From the NCBI RefSeq assembly GCF_947497285.1, contig NZ_CANMFT010000002.1:372001-436000 (forward strand): a stretch of 64,000 nt of DNA, read 5' to 3'. Source of the stretch: an uncultured Aliiroseovarius sp. (GTDB lineage Bacteria > Pseudomonadota > Alphaproteobacteria > Rhodobacterales > Rhodobacteraceae). Under the pieces are notes generated by a model. That model was not told where the DNA came from and ran no database searches. It saw only the letters and a list, made by a program, of their open reading frames with translations. Shown here piece by piece: positions 28,831 to 32,798 of this stretch; position 1 is the stretch's first letter, and the number at the start of each line of letters is the position of its first letter. Both the position numbers and the translations under genes were made by a program.

Positions 28831-30921
28831 ATGGCGACGCGACCCGAAATTCTGTTTCCCCTGTTTGCCAAGCTTGAAACGCTGGGCGGCATTGGCGAAA
28901 AGACGGCCAAAGGTCTGGGAACGCTTGGTATTACGCTCCCGCGCGATTTGCTGTTCTGGTTGCCGCATGCAGGGATCGACCGCAAATTTCGCGCCTCGGT
29001 GACCGAGGTGCAGCTTGGCGAAATCGCCACGGTCGAAATCGAGGTGTTGAAGCACCGCCCGGGTCGCACACGAACCGCCCCCTATCGGATCGAGGTCAAA
29101 GACGCCCTGACCACCTTCGATCTGGTGTTTTTCCACGCAAATGCAAACTGGCTTTCAAAGCAATTGCCTGAAGGCGAAACCCGTGTGATCTCGGGCAAGG
29201 TCGAGGCCTTTGATGGTGCCTTGCAGATCGCGCATCCCGACTACATCCTGCCGCCAAATGATGTTGATGAAATACCCGATTACGAACCGGTATACCGGCT
29301 GACTGCGGGCATTACCGGACGCACCATCGCCAAGGGAGTCGGCGAGGTGCTGACCCGTTTGCCTGTGTTGAAGGAATGGATCGACCCGGAGTTGAAGTCG
29401 CGCGAACATTGGCCGGACTGGCACATGGCATTGCGACAGGCCCATACCCCACAAGGCGCCGATGACCTGTCGCCCCAATCGCCCGCGCGCCGCCGCTTGG
29501 CCTATGACGAGTTCTTCGCCCATCAGCTGACACTTGCGCTTGCACGCGCAAAGGTGCGCCGTGGCAAGGGACGGCTCAGCGTTGGCACCGGGCAGTTGCA
29601 GGAGAAGGTATTGGCGGCCTTGCCCTATGCGCCCACAGCAGCACAACGTCGTGCGGTCGAAGAAATTGCAGCCGATATGGCGTCGGGTCAAAGGATGAAC
29701 CGGTTGCTGCAGGGCGATGTGGGCTCTGGCAAGACGCTGGTCGCTTTGCTGTCGCTTCTGGTCGCGGTCGAGGCCGGCGGGCAGGGCGTCATGATGGCCC
29801 CGACCGAGATCTTGGCCGCTCAGCATCTTGAAGCGATCCGCCCGTTGGCCGAAGCGGCGGGGGTCGTGGTCGCACTGCTGACGGGGCGTGACAAGGGGGC
29901 CGAAAGGCGATCCAAGCTTGAAGCCTTGGCGCGGGGCGACATTCACATTCTTGTCGGCACCCATGCGGTGTTTCAGAAAGATGTCGTTTTCCAAGACCTT
30001 CGACTTGCCGTCGTGGATGAACAGCACCGGTTTGGTGTCTCGCAACGCATGGAGCTTGGGGCAAAAGGGCAGGCCTCGGACGTGCTTGTGATGACAGCCA
30101 CACCGATTCCGCGCAGTTTGGCGCTTGCCCAGTATGGCGATATGGATGTGTCGGTGCTGGATGAAAAGCCACCGGGGCGAAAGCCGATCAAGACCGTGCT
30201 TGTGTCCGACGGCCGCATTGACGAAGTGATCGAACGGTTGCGCCGCGCGATTGACGACGGCGCACAGGCCTATTGGGTTTGTCCCTTGGTCGAAGAAAGC
30301 GAAGTGATGGACATGACGGCCGCCGAGGAACGGTTCAAGCTTCTGCGCGCAGACCTGGGCGAGGGCGTGGTTGGTCTGGTGCATGGGCAAATGCCGCCCG
30401 CCGAAAAAGATGCCGCAATGGCCGCCTTCGTCGCTGGCGACACCCGGCTGTTGGTAGCAACGACGGTGATCGAAGTTGGCGTGGACGTGCCCAATGCCTC
30501 GATCATGGTGATCGAACGCGCCGAGCACTTCGGGCTGGCCCAACTGCACCAGCTGCGCGGACGGGTGGGCCGGGGGCAGACGGCGTCGACCTGTTTGCTG
30601 CTGTATCACCCGCCCCTGACCGAAAGCGGCGAGAAACGCCTGTCGGTGATGCGCGACACCGAAGATGGGTTCGTGATTTCCGAGGCGGATTTGGAAATGC
30701 GCGGGGCCGGGGACGTGTTGGGGACCGCGCAGTCCGGTCTGCCACGGTTCTGGGTTGGAGATCTTGAACATCAGGCGGCTTTGATGGCCGTGGCCCAGAA
30801 AGACGCGCGTCTTCTGTTGCATCAAGACCCCGATCTGACGACCGCACGGGGGCATGCGGCACGCGTTCTACTGTGGCTGATGCGGCAGGACGAAGCCATT
30901 CGTTTGATTTCAGTGGGTTAG
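28831..30921 (+). CDS. recG: ATP-dependent DNA helicase RecG
   Basis: 696 residues, normal length. It reverses stalled replication forks and branch-migrates recombination intermediates. An N-terminal wedge/OB domain is followed by SF2 helicase motifs: Walker A GDVGSGKT (around 295), DEQH (around 395), TATPIPRSLALAQYGDMD (motif III region), and QLRGRVGRG (motif VI). It starts 3 bases after the ligA stop, so ligA-recG form a repair operon. Its stop codon lies 8 bases before the first GTTC of the SOS-box cluster. Confidence 0.96.
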   Translation: MATRPEILFPLFAKLETLGGIGEKTAKGLGTLGITLPRDLLFWLPHAGIDRKFRASVTEVQLGEIATVEIEVLKHRPGRTRTAPYRIEVKDALTTFDLVFFHANANWLSKQLPEGETRVISGKVEAFDGALQIAHPDYILPPNDVDEIPDYEPVYRLTAGITGRTIAKGVGEVLTRLPVLKEWIDPELKSREHWPDWHMALRQAHTPQGADDLSPQSPARRRLAYDEFFAHQLTLALARAKVRRGKGRLSVGTGQLQEKVLAALPYAPTAAQRRAVEEIAADMASGQRMNRLLQGDVGSGKTLVALLSLLVAVEAGGQGVMMAPTEILAAQHLEAIRPLAEAAGVVVALLTGRDKGAERRSKLEALARGDIHILVGTHAVFQKDVVFQDLRLAVVDEQHRFGVSQRMELGAKGQASDVLVMTATPIPRSLALAQYGDMDVSVLDEKPPGRKPIKTVLVSDGRIDEVIERLRRAIDDGAQAYWVCPLVEESEVMDMTAAEERFKLLRADLGEGVVGLVHGQMPPAEKDAAMAAFVAGDTRLLVATTVIEVGVDVPNASIMVIERAEHFGLAQLHQLRGRVGRGQTASTCLLLYHPPLTESGEKRLSVMRDTEDGFVISEADLEMRGAGDVLGTAQSGLPRFWVGDLEHQAALMAVAQKDARLLLHQDPDLTTARGHAARVLLWLMRQDEAIRLISVG

Positions 30922-30928
30922 CCCATTT

Positions 30929-30963
30929 GTTCTCATAAGTTCACAAATGTTCTTAAAAAGTTC
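30929..30963. promoter_or_regulatory. SOS (LexA) box cluster, GTTC direct repeats
   Basis: GTTC occurs four times, at 30929, 30939, 30949 and 30960, with spacers of 6, 6 and 7 bases. The last pair (GTTCTTAAAAAGTTC, 30949-30963) exactly fits GTTC-N7-GTTC, the direct-repeat LexA operator described for Rhodobacter and rhizobia. A near-match in the opposite orientation (GAAC-N7-CAAC) is at 30988-31002. A -35-like TTTACA at 30964-30969 abuts the box. The -10 is not obvious. The downstream gene is the microprotein at 31058. Confidence 0.7.
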
Positions 30964-31057
30964 TTTACAAACCGCGCGCAAATATGCGAACAAAATAGCA
31001 ACAAAGGTGATGTGGTTCACGAAGACCCCACCGAAACAGAGCGCAGGAGAGTTTGTC

Positions 31058-31180
31058 ATGCTGAACGAAATGAAAGCTGTATTGTCCCGATCATCCGCCA
31101 CAATTTGGCAGGATGCCGTCGGTGGCATGTGCCTGTTGGTTGTTCTTTTTGGAGCGCTTCATCTGCCCGGGGCGATCTAA
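31058..31180 (+). CDS. 40-residue single-span membrane microprotein, predicted SOS-induced
   Basis: ATG at 31058 with a strong RBS (CAGGAG, 7-base spacing). The product is 40 residues: an amphipathic N-terminus (MLNEMKAVLSRSSATIWQDA), then one hydrophobic helix (GGMCLLVVLFGALHLPGAI) ending at the stop. The frame reads upstream to 30947 without a stop, but that part has no RBS and overlaps the operator region. The gene sits between an SOS box and a strong terminator, so it is a complete transcription unit of about 400 bases. The plan resembles SidA of Caulobacter (29-residue, SOS-induced, one membrane helix, blocks division). I see no sequence evidence of homology. Confidence 0.65.
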   Translation: MLNEMKAVLSRSSATIWQDAVGGMCLLVVLFGALHLPGAI

Positions 31181-31333
31181 CCCCAATCCAGTTTCTGCCT
31201 GCGGAGGGTCCGGACACTGCATCATGTCCCAAATGCGATGTATCATGACGGTTCACTGCCCGTCACTTGTCCCAAGACCCGGTGTGACTGCCTCTTTCCC
31301 ACACCGGACCCCGAAAACCCGTCCCGCTACCTT

Positions 31334-31369
31334 CCGCCGCCTCCCTGCCAGGAGTGCGGCGGTTTTTTT
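31334..31369 (+). terminator. Strong intrinsic terminator after the microprotein gene
   Basis: CCGCCGC (31334-31340) pairs with GCGGCGG (31356-31362), with an inner CTCC/GGAG pairing, followed by seven T residues (31363-31369). It overlaps the stop codon of the convergent chemoreceptor gene. The 150 bases between the microprotein stop and this stem show no convincing gene. Confidence 0.85.
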
Positions 31370-32798
31370 ATGCATCGGCCAAATAGGCCATGCGCAAGCC
31401 GCCCCAATGGCGGCCGTTCACCACGATTGGCGCCGACAGGTCCTTCATTAACGCGAATTGCCCGCCGCCCATGTCACGACGATAGACTTGCAGCAGAAAC
31501 GGGGCGGTGGATTGCCCGGCTTTCAGGCCGACACGGTCGTCAAAAATCCTTCGGTTCCGGCAATGCGCCATGTTCCAGACCGGATCGTCACTTTGGGGAT
31601 GCGAAAAGCACTTGTTGTGTGTGGGCAGGTAGCCGCGTTGATCGACCGCAGCACAAAACACAACGCGCGCGTCGCTGGTCAATGCGGCTTCCAGTATCTC
31701 GGGCAATATGCTGTCGGTCAGACGTGTGAATGGTGCCATCACCTGTTGTGGATTGCTTCCTGGGATCACGTGGTAGGTTTCTGAAAACAGCGCGGCTTCG
31801 GTGATCAACTGCGTGTCCAAAGCGTGCTCAAACCGTTTCGCAATTTGGCGCGCGTCGCTTTGGACCCGTTCGATGAATTGCCGGTCCCCGGACACCACAC
31901 CCAGCCCGACCGTAAGCTGGACCATCCGTTCAGACAGGTCGATCATACCATTGGTTTGCTGGCTGACATGGTGAACACCGGTGGCGGTTTTGGCCGCGCA
32001 CCCGCTGATACTTTCGAACGCGGGCAGAAAGTCGGAAACCAATGCGCCGACGGTTTCAGCCTCGGTCTTTATTTGGCGGGTCGCGTGCGCGTTTTTCGCA
32101 GCCCGTTCGGCCAGATCTTGACTTGCGGTCGTGATCGCGACCGAGCTTTCTATGACGCGCCCAGCCTCAGTCGCAACATCCGCGGATTGGCTGTTCAGGG
32201 TGCCTACAGTCCGTGTCAACGCATCCACATCCGAGAATATATTCTCGGCGGTTTTGGTTGTCTTGGCGGACAATTCGTTGATTGCTGCGGCGACAACCGC
32301 GAAGCCACGCCCCGCGTCACCTGCGCGAGCGGCTTCGATCTTGGCATTCACCGCAAGGATGTTGACCTGCGCGGCAATCGACGCGATTTGTTCGTTGCTT
32401 TTGTGGATGTTGCGCAAGGTGTCGGTCATCTGTGCCATCTGGTCGGCCAGCGCGTTGACCCATTGCGCGATGCCTTGTGCCTGCTGGGCGTTTGTTTCGA
32501 CCTGATCGGCTGTGGCTTTGGCGGATTGCGCGTTGGTTTGCGCACGGCTCATCAGGTCATGCAGCGTGGTTAGAACTGTCGCGTTCGATGCGAGAACGTG
32601 CTGGGACTGCCGGGTAAGTGCCTCGATCGACTGTTTTTGCTGGCCGGCCATCATATCGACATCTGCCAGAAATCCAGCAACATCGACGATCTTGAAGCCA
32701 AGTTCCGCCGCCGCGCGGGCGATGTCATCAAGGCCCTGCTTTGATGCGTCCGGAATTGGGAAAGCTTGGTTTTCGATCATGACCGCCACATGTTTCAC
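31368..32798 (-). CDS. Cytoplasmic methyl-accepting chemotaxis protein with C-terminal sensory domain
   Basis: About 476 residues (GTG at 32798; an ATG at 32780 is an equally good start). No membrane segment is visible, so it is a soluble chemoreceptor. The signalling hairpin tip is complete (IASIAAQVNILAVNAKIEAARAGDAGRGF), surrounded by long heptad-repeat helices from about 40 to 300. The sensory module is C-terminal (about 330-476), unlike classical receptors. It has a Cache-like ending (NGRHWGGLRMAYLA) and conserved Cys/His residues (NKCFSHPQ, NMAHCRNRRIF). Receptors with this plan occur in Roseobacter-group bacteria. No che genes are adjacent. Confidence 0.85.
   Translation of the reverse strand: MKHVAVMIENQAFPIPDASKQGLDDIARAAAELGFKIVDVAGFLADVDMMAGQQKQSIEALTRQSQHVLASNATVLTTLHDLMSRAQTNAQSAKATADQVETNAQQAQGIAQWVNALADQMAQMTDTLRNIHKSNEQIASIAAQVNILAVNAKIEAARAGDAGRGFAVVAAAINELSAKTTKTAENIFSDVDALTRTVGTLNSQSADVATEAGRVIESSVAITTASQDLAERAAKNAHATRQIKTEAETVGALVSDFLPAFESISGCAAKTATGVHHVSQQTNGMIDLSERMVQLTVGLGVVSGDRQFIERVQSDARQIAKRFEHALDTQLITEAALFSETYHVIPGSNPQQVMAPFTRLTDSILPEILEAALTSDARVVFCAAVDQRGYLPTHNKCFSHPQSDDPVWNMAHCRNRRIFDDRVGLKAGQSTAPFLLQVYRRDMGGGQFALMKDLSAPIVVNGRHWGGLRMAYLADA

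Follow-up and report, generated by a model that had tools for sequence, protein, structure and literature searches.

How Rhodobacteraceae halt division after DNA damage is, to our knowledge, an open question, and SidA is known from Caulobacter. A short interval behind recG, in the 64-kb stretch of DNA analyzed here (hereafter the window), bears on this question. An original prediction, made from the letters of the window, placed in it an SOS-controlled membrane microprotein of 40 residues that might inhibit division. Is the open reading frame (ORF) a gene, what else does its transcript carry, and does LexA control it?

Results

Anatomy and conservation of the microprotein gene

The interval contains what the original prediction described (Table 1): four GTTC repeats that include a perfect GTTC-N7-GTTC, a 40-codon ORF with a strong ribosome-binding site, a hydrophobic C-terminal half in a protein for which AlphaFold2 predicts one helix, and a strong intrinsic terminator, all placed behind a recG gene that is found upstream in nearly all loci checked. 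The boundaries of the interval were also drawn correctly, and they enclose a structured RNA that had been overlooked, in a 3′ untranslated region (UTR) with about 150–170 nt between stop codon and terminator. Facing the terminator on the minus strand is a frame (31368–32798) that reads by eye as a methyl-accepting chemotaxis-type protein.

Table 1. Features of the unit and its upstream neighbor, in window coordinates
Feature	Position	Strand	Basis
recG, usual upstream neighbor, outside the unit	28831..30921	+	ORF list
GTTC array, starts 30929/30939/30949/30960, spacings 10/10/11	30929..30963	+	sequence
Perfect GTTC-N7-GTTC box	30949-30963	+	pattern match
Putative -35 element TTTACA	30964..30969	+	column table; putative function
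Second LexA-like element GAACAAAATAGCAAC	30988..31002	+	GAAC-N7-NAAC in 110/111 loci
Shine-Dalgarno AGGAG	31045..31049	+	sequence; SD-like in 117/126 loci
Predicted membrane microprotein, 40 residues, MLNEMKAVLSRSSATIWQDAVGGMCLLVVLFGALHLPGAI	31058..31180	+	conserved ORF
Conserved structured RNA of the 3′ UTR	31188..31333	+	R2 match 31188-31369 including terminator
Intrinsic terminator CCGCCGCC..GCGGCGG + T-run	31334..31369	+	hairpin 31334-31362, fold z -3.79

The ORF is conserved throughout the genus and in most of the family genomes searched. Protein profile searches found a homologue in 21/21 genomes of the genus (for one of these, 56% complete, the match is confined to a fragment at E 6.4e-4) and in 308/394 family genomes drawn from 393 genera. 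The latter figure is an undercount, because the RNA model described below recovered diverged ORFs in genomes that had lacked an ORF match. A single match is the rule in almost all family genomes that have any; among the matched genomes listed, only G362 and G402 depart from it, with two matches each that may reflect duplications. Within the genus, dN/dS has a median of 0.21 over 128 pairs, with identities of 0.75, 0.90, and 0.56 at the first, second, and third codon positions. Among 126 ORFs, 97 are exactly 40 codons long and 120 begin with ATG. The check proposed with the original prediction, conservation of ORF and box near recG in relatives, was run and found both conserved and the ORF under purifying selection. 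Together, these comparisons argue strongly that the 40-codon ORF is a real gene. Shortened ORFs of 31–36 residues stand behind the same promoter in five loci (L122, L174, L196, L226, and L228), some of them Paracoccus by title.

The protein is predicted to be a short single-span inner-membrane protein. Across the 97 homologues of 40 residues, D19, G22, and P37 are invariant and R11, T15, L26, L30, L34, and L36 are retained in 92% or more; the most divergent loci break constant residues, for example L321, which has E instead of D19. In these homologues the net charge of the N-terminal 18 residues is about +1.2 and the remainder is hydrophobic (median best 19-residue hydropathy 2.11), and AlphaFold2 models residues 2–39 as a single helix with a mean pLDDT of 85. 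Neither Pfam nor NCBIfam holds a family that matches members of the microprotein family beyond chance, PHROGs yielded one chance-level match among 33 members, and the best PDB match has an E-value of 0.19.

A structured RNA in the 3′ UTR

Behind the ORF, a recurrent RNA architecture comprises a long closing stem, hairpins with CUGUCCC, CUGCC, or UUGCCUC-type (CUGYC-type) loops, and the terminator. An intrinsic terminator is present in 117/121 loci, at a median distance of 175 nt from the stop codon. The terminator expression GCCGC..GCGGC, sought within 260 bases, was found in 108/126 ORF loci, which left 87 UTRs after removal of near-duplicates. With the terminator excluded, these 87 have a median fold z of -2.53, with 64 below -2 and none above 0, and the copy in the window scores -2.13. 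At least six long-range pairs are predicted in 86/87 UTRs vs. 413/870 shuffles. Two hexamers recur far above expectation, CTGCCT in 81/87 UTRs (9.8 expected) and CTGTCC in 73/87 (10.5 expected), and in the predicted folds they are often single-stranded or in loops.

Covariation strongly supports a conserved RNA structure in the 3′ UTR. We built a covariance model, R1, from nine related sequences and refined it to give R2. R1 matched 92 of the 100 loci searched (out of 128) at E 3e-4 or better, eight of the 92 coming from its training set; of the 109 match rows, 94 fall immediately after the ORF and on the same strand, and 15 lie elsewhere or antisense. Two-sided changes occur in 25/31 pairs among 60 full-length matches, with 264 two-sided cells vs. 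69 in shuffles and 36–49 with the partner slid. The 60 were picked from 100, leaving out poor matches and long inserts, and this result therefore leans toward good fits. Across all 109 matches, 28/31 pairs show two-sided changes (396 cells vs. 101 in shuffles). Since the alignments were fitted to the structure, the covariation figures as a whole lean toward it. A MAFFT alignment (A3) was dropped, as two-sided changes occurred in just 4/27 predicted pairs. Against Rfam 15, the sole match in positions 30700–31500 of the window (31280–31367) scores 15.3 bits vs. a gathering score of 45 (E 0.42), and 10 loci gave eight matches, none in the 3′ UTR and none near the gathering score. Given its size and conservation and the lack of an Rfam 15 match, the RNA would be a new RNA family.

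Such an RNA might be the main product of the locus, as a 3′-UTR-derived or dual-function small RNA (sRNA) whose C-rich loops pair with mRNAs, with the ORF secondary. The recurrent hexamers and the strong covariation favor this view, as does precedent in R. sphaeroides, where several 3′-UTR-derived sRNAs are described, for example UdsC, 67 nt long and RpoHII-dependent (PMC8625941, PMC9779115). In both cases the mRNA of a hypothetical protein carries an RNA element at its 3′ end, putatively functional here; unlike UdsC, the present RNA measures about 150 nt plus terminator and has a multibranched predicted fold. Purifying selection on the ORF, however, is clear, and 6/6 loci found by RNA alone (below) contain it; we consider a primarily RNA-based function rather unlikely.

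Co-occurrence of ORF and RNA

Protein and RNA travel together. A search of 385 Alphaproteobacteria genomes with R2, run under stricter filters, gave strong matches (at least 76.7 bits) in five, each of them one of the Rhodobacteraceae; a single copy was matched in the genome of the window. Outside the family 46 genomes matched at 34.2 bits or less, and the four loci inspected among them (L298, L300, L301, and L302) showed no recG match. The five Rhodobacteraceae strongly matched by R2 were also picked out by the protein profile, whose only other match was a weak one within a long frame. Of the 86 family genomes in which no ORF was matched, 20 were sampled, and nine of these matched R2. Six of these nine loci lie directly behind recG, each with a diverged ORF of 39–40 codons that was picked by eye; L324 and L325 are not the real locus, and L326 matched in the terminator only. 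R2 matches are weak (14–20 bits) at the short-ORF loci L196, L226, and L228, and L221 and L229 gave none. Within the searches made, the unit appears to be one coding-plus-structured-RNA transcript confined to Rhodobacteraceae.

A small hydrophobic peptide on a structured transcript also recalls TisB/IstR-1 of E. coli, in which a LexA-controlled hydrophobic membrane peptide, an SOS-induced toxin, is made from a structured mRNA. A TisB-like unit would produce a damage-induced peptide that lowers membrane potential and growth, its mRNA being silenced by structure or antisense RNA, and the LexA-like boxes examined below would fit as well. Here, in contrast, the structured part lies 3′ of the ORF and the gene is conserved across the whole family. 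Its single match in nearly all matched family genomes, its near-constant place, and the constancy of D19, G22, and P37 among the 97 homologues indicate a specific partner and make a TisB-like toxin distinctly improbable.

A dedicated promoter

The comparisons indicate that the unit has its own dedicated, conserved promoter. We scanned GTDB species genomes with a pattern blind to both ORF and neighbor (GTTC-N7-GTTCTTTAC-N16-20-GAACAAA), which returned at least 117 sites. Among the matches listed, the ORF lies downstream in 114/114 testable loci, called at E 0.01 or better with four calls below 25 bits, part of the loci having served to build the ORF profile; L139, L194, and L213 end 32–130 bases behind the promoter site and are not testable. 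For 80 of the at least 117 matches, the record title refers to a genus that we assign to Rhodobacteraceae, to the Roseobacter group, or to nothing narrower than Rhodobacterales or Alphaproteobacteria. Within the genus of the window, 19/21 genomes carry the exact upstream half of the promoter, one copy apiece and solely at the microprotein locus; G006 has one mismatch there, the incomplete G018 has no copy, and no other exact copy was found in the 21 genomes. The downstream element has two other exact copies (G001:C9 and G000:C4), both in front of unrelated frames and attributed to chance. The -35 position reads TTGACG in L319, L320, L321, L346, and L378, and TTGCNN in some relatives.

The same searches define the relation to recG. 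Its C-terminus lies directly upstream in 20/21 genus loci (the 21st is cut by the contig), in 28/28 family loci, and in 6/6 loci found by the RNA model. Among the promoter matches listed, recG is upstream in 114/116 testable loci, 2–544 bases away in 113; L199 has the recG tail at its cut edge, and L217, which starts 22 bases before the site, is uninformative. L204 and L229 have promoter and ORF with other genes upstream, pepA- and holC-like frames in L204 and a homoserine-dehydrogenase-like frame in L229 (named by reading of the frames). Promoter, ORF, and structured RNA (77.6 bits) occur together in L204 without recG, and the unit can therefore stand alone. The recG neighborhood by itself is no evidence for SOS control.

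LexA-like elements and possible SOS control

By count, the box named in the original prediction is not enriched: GTTC-N7-GTTC occurs three times in the window vs. 2.55 expected, and 127 times in the genome vs. 168 for the reversed pattern. We therefore used conservation as evidence. The counts would suit an ORF and a box that arose by chance in the gap downstream of recG, but conservation, coding selection, and an arrangement repeated in more than 100 loci refute that explanation and leave it next to no probability.

Two half-site pairs, GTTC-N7-GTTC and GAAC-N7-NAAC, bracket the promoter in nearly all relatives. We compared 111 loci found without use of the promoter (20 from the genus, 28 and 57 from the family by protein, the set of 57 leaving out one region near a contig start, and six by RNA). 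The first pair lies upstream of the ORF in 107/111 loci vs. 0/347 recG-coding windows and the second in 110/111 vs. 2/347, coding windows being an imperfect control for both. The final half-site of the second element is CAAC in 98/111, GAAC in nine, and TAAC in three. It forms a perfect GAAC-N7-GAAC in eight divergent loci (L319, L321, L322, L323, L329, L338, L366, and L383), and a ninth match, in L334, sits elsewhere. Three of the most divergent loci lack GTTC-N7-GTTC; of these, L320 has a spacing of N6, whereas the GAAC box is perfect in L319 and L322.

Comparison with lexA and recA places the two elements differently. GAAC-N7-GAAC in gene orientation precedes lexA in 30/30 and recA in 26/31 family loci examined. 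The second element resembles these operators in its eight perfect copies and differs from them in its mostly CAAC second half-site and in the extra GTTC array upstream. The upstream GTTC box has the opposite orientation and an A-rich spacer unlike theirs. At 16/26 recA promoters, GTTC-N7-GNTC lies upstream of the GAAC box, and recA may therefore have a second, flipped LexA-type element. Many recA promoters (L083 and L261–L290) share TGTTC-N4-TTTG upstream of the LexA box. Most lexA promoters examined (L084 and L232–L260) have TTGACACAAA or a near variant immediately before the box, and 12/30 have a second GAAC-N7-GAAC in tandem with the middle half-site in common.

Position weight matrices (PWMs) rank both elements low relative to known sites. 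These were made from 56 lexA and recA boxes, without flanks or with one flanking base per side; they represent two orthologous promoters, and their background was drawn from the loci themselves. Median scores without flanks are 10.1 for the upstream box, 10.0 for the downstream element, and 20.2 for known sites; with flanks they are 15.3, 11.3, and 22.8, the 5% level being 14.1. This level is reached by 54/104 upstream boxes and 24/105 downstream elements, and scores of at least 14 are common by chance (132 per Mb, both strands, in background loci). The perfect boxes of the eight divergent loci score 14.2–21.1 vs. the 5% level of 14.1; in the window the upstream box scores 12.9 and the second element 5.8 vs. 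the known-site median of 22.8. The GTTC box is conserved, and its flipped orientation, its A-rich spacer, and its low scores count against a role as a LexA operator. The second element, a perfect box in eight divergent loci, is the better evidence for LexA.

The promoter is conserved beyond what LexA needs, and the genus yielded no other exact copy of its upstream half, which makes another regulator possible. An unknown regulator, not LexA, would then read the GTTC array beside the -35 element, and the unit would have an envelope or growth role unrelated to damage. GTTC-N6-GTTC-N7-GTTC is kept in 94/111 loci, the array has a 10/11-bp spacing that we take to be response-regulator-like, conservation of its spacers exceeds that seen in lexA and recA boxes, and the predominance of CAAC over GAAC in the second element points the same way. 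On the other side, divergent loci carry perfect LexA-type boxes, L319 and L322 even without GTTC-N7-GTTC. Of published candidates, the motifs of CenR (TGA-N8-TGA; PMC9275681), ChvI (TTGC-N3-GCAA; PMC9731502), and DriD (ATACGAC-N7-GTCGTAT; PMC12340889), in the form given in the cited passages, do not match by eye. Regulation by a protein other than LexA is unlikely, though a real contender, and we lean toward SOS control of the unit. Titles and abstract openings listed from the literature searched, which lay mostly outside subscription journals, neither name the locus nor describe it as induced by damage or by loss of lexA. Three of 41 family genomes (G048, G049, and G053; 86%, 97%, and 74% complete) have no LexA domain match, and G048 still carries the microprotein.

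Discussion

We propose that the interval is a LexA-controlled two-product unit that yields a membrane brake microprotein and a folded 3′ RNA, a reading to which we assign a probability of roughly one half. The promoter, lying between two LexA-type half-site pairs, would probably be repressed by LexA and released by DNA damage. The transcript, about 380 nt from a putative start site, would comprise the microprotein ORF, the folded RNA, and the terminator. The microprotein may serve as an inner-membrane brake while DNA is damaged, with the septal or envelope machinery as its most likely target, much as for SidA and DidA; this role is suggested by its size, topology, presumed regulation, and recG neighborhood. 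The folded RNA would most likely stabilize or control its own mRNA, or be freed as a base-pairing sRNA that acts through its C-rich loops.

Like SidA and DidA, the microprotein is a small membrane protein, here by prediction, in an alphaproteobacterium; unlike SidA, which has 29 residues, it has 40. In Caulobacter crescentus, SidA and DidA are small inner-membrane proteins that block late division via FtsW/FtsI/FtsN, and SidA is SOS-induced; unlike the unit here, neither has a structured 3′ RNA in the passages describing them (PMC4211646). A division or septal target, argued from this likeness, is speculative.

SOS membrane peptides and small-ORF mRNAs with functional 3′ ends are kinds already known. 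Their combination and the protein and RNA families are absent from the libraries searched. The most far-reaching version of the proposal, a family-wide damage-controlled dual-function transcript that joins a membrane checkpoint microprotein to a multibranched regulatory RNA of a new class, marked by recurring CUGYC loops, is in our estimate quite unlikely.

The Rhodobacteraceae are an abundant marine bacterial family with tractable strains, among them Ruegeria pomeroyi, Phaeobacter inhibens, and Dinoroseobacter shibae, and most of the family genomes searched contain this candidate division-stop gene. Whatever its function, the coupling of a structured RNA to a microprotein is an unusual design. 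If the most far-reaching version of the proposal is true, a division brake and a riboregulator would be induced together after DNA damage throughout the Rhodobacteraceae.
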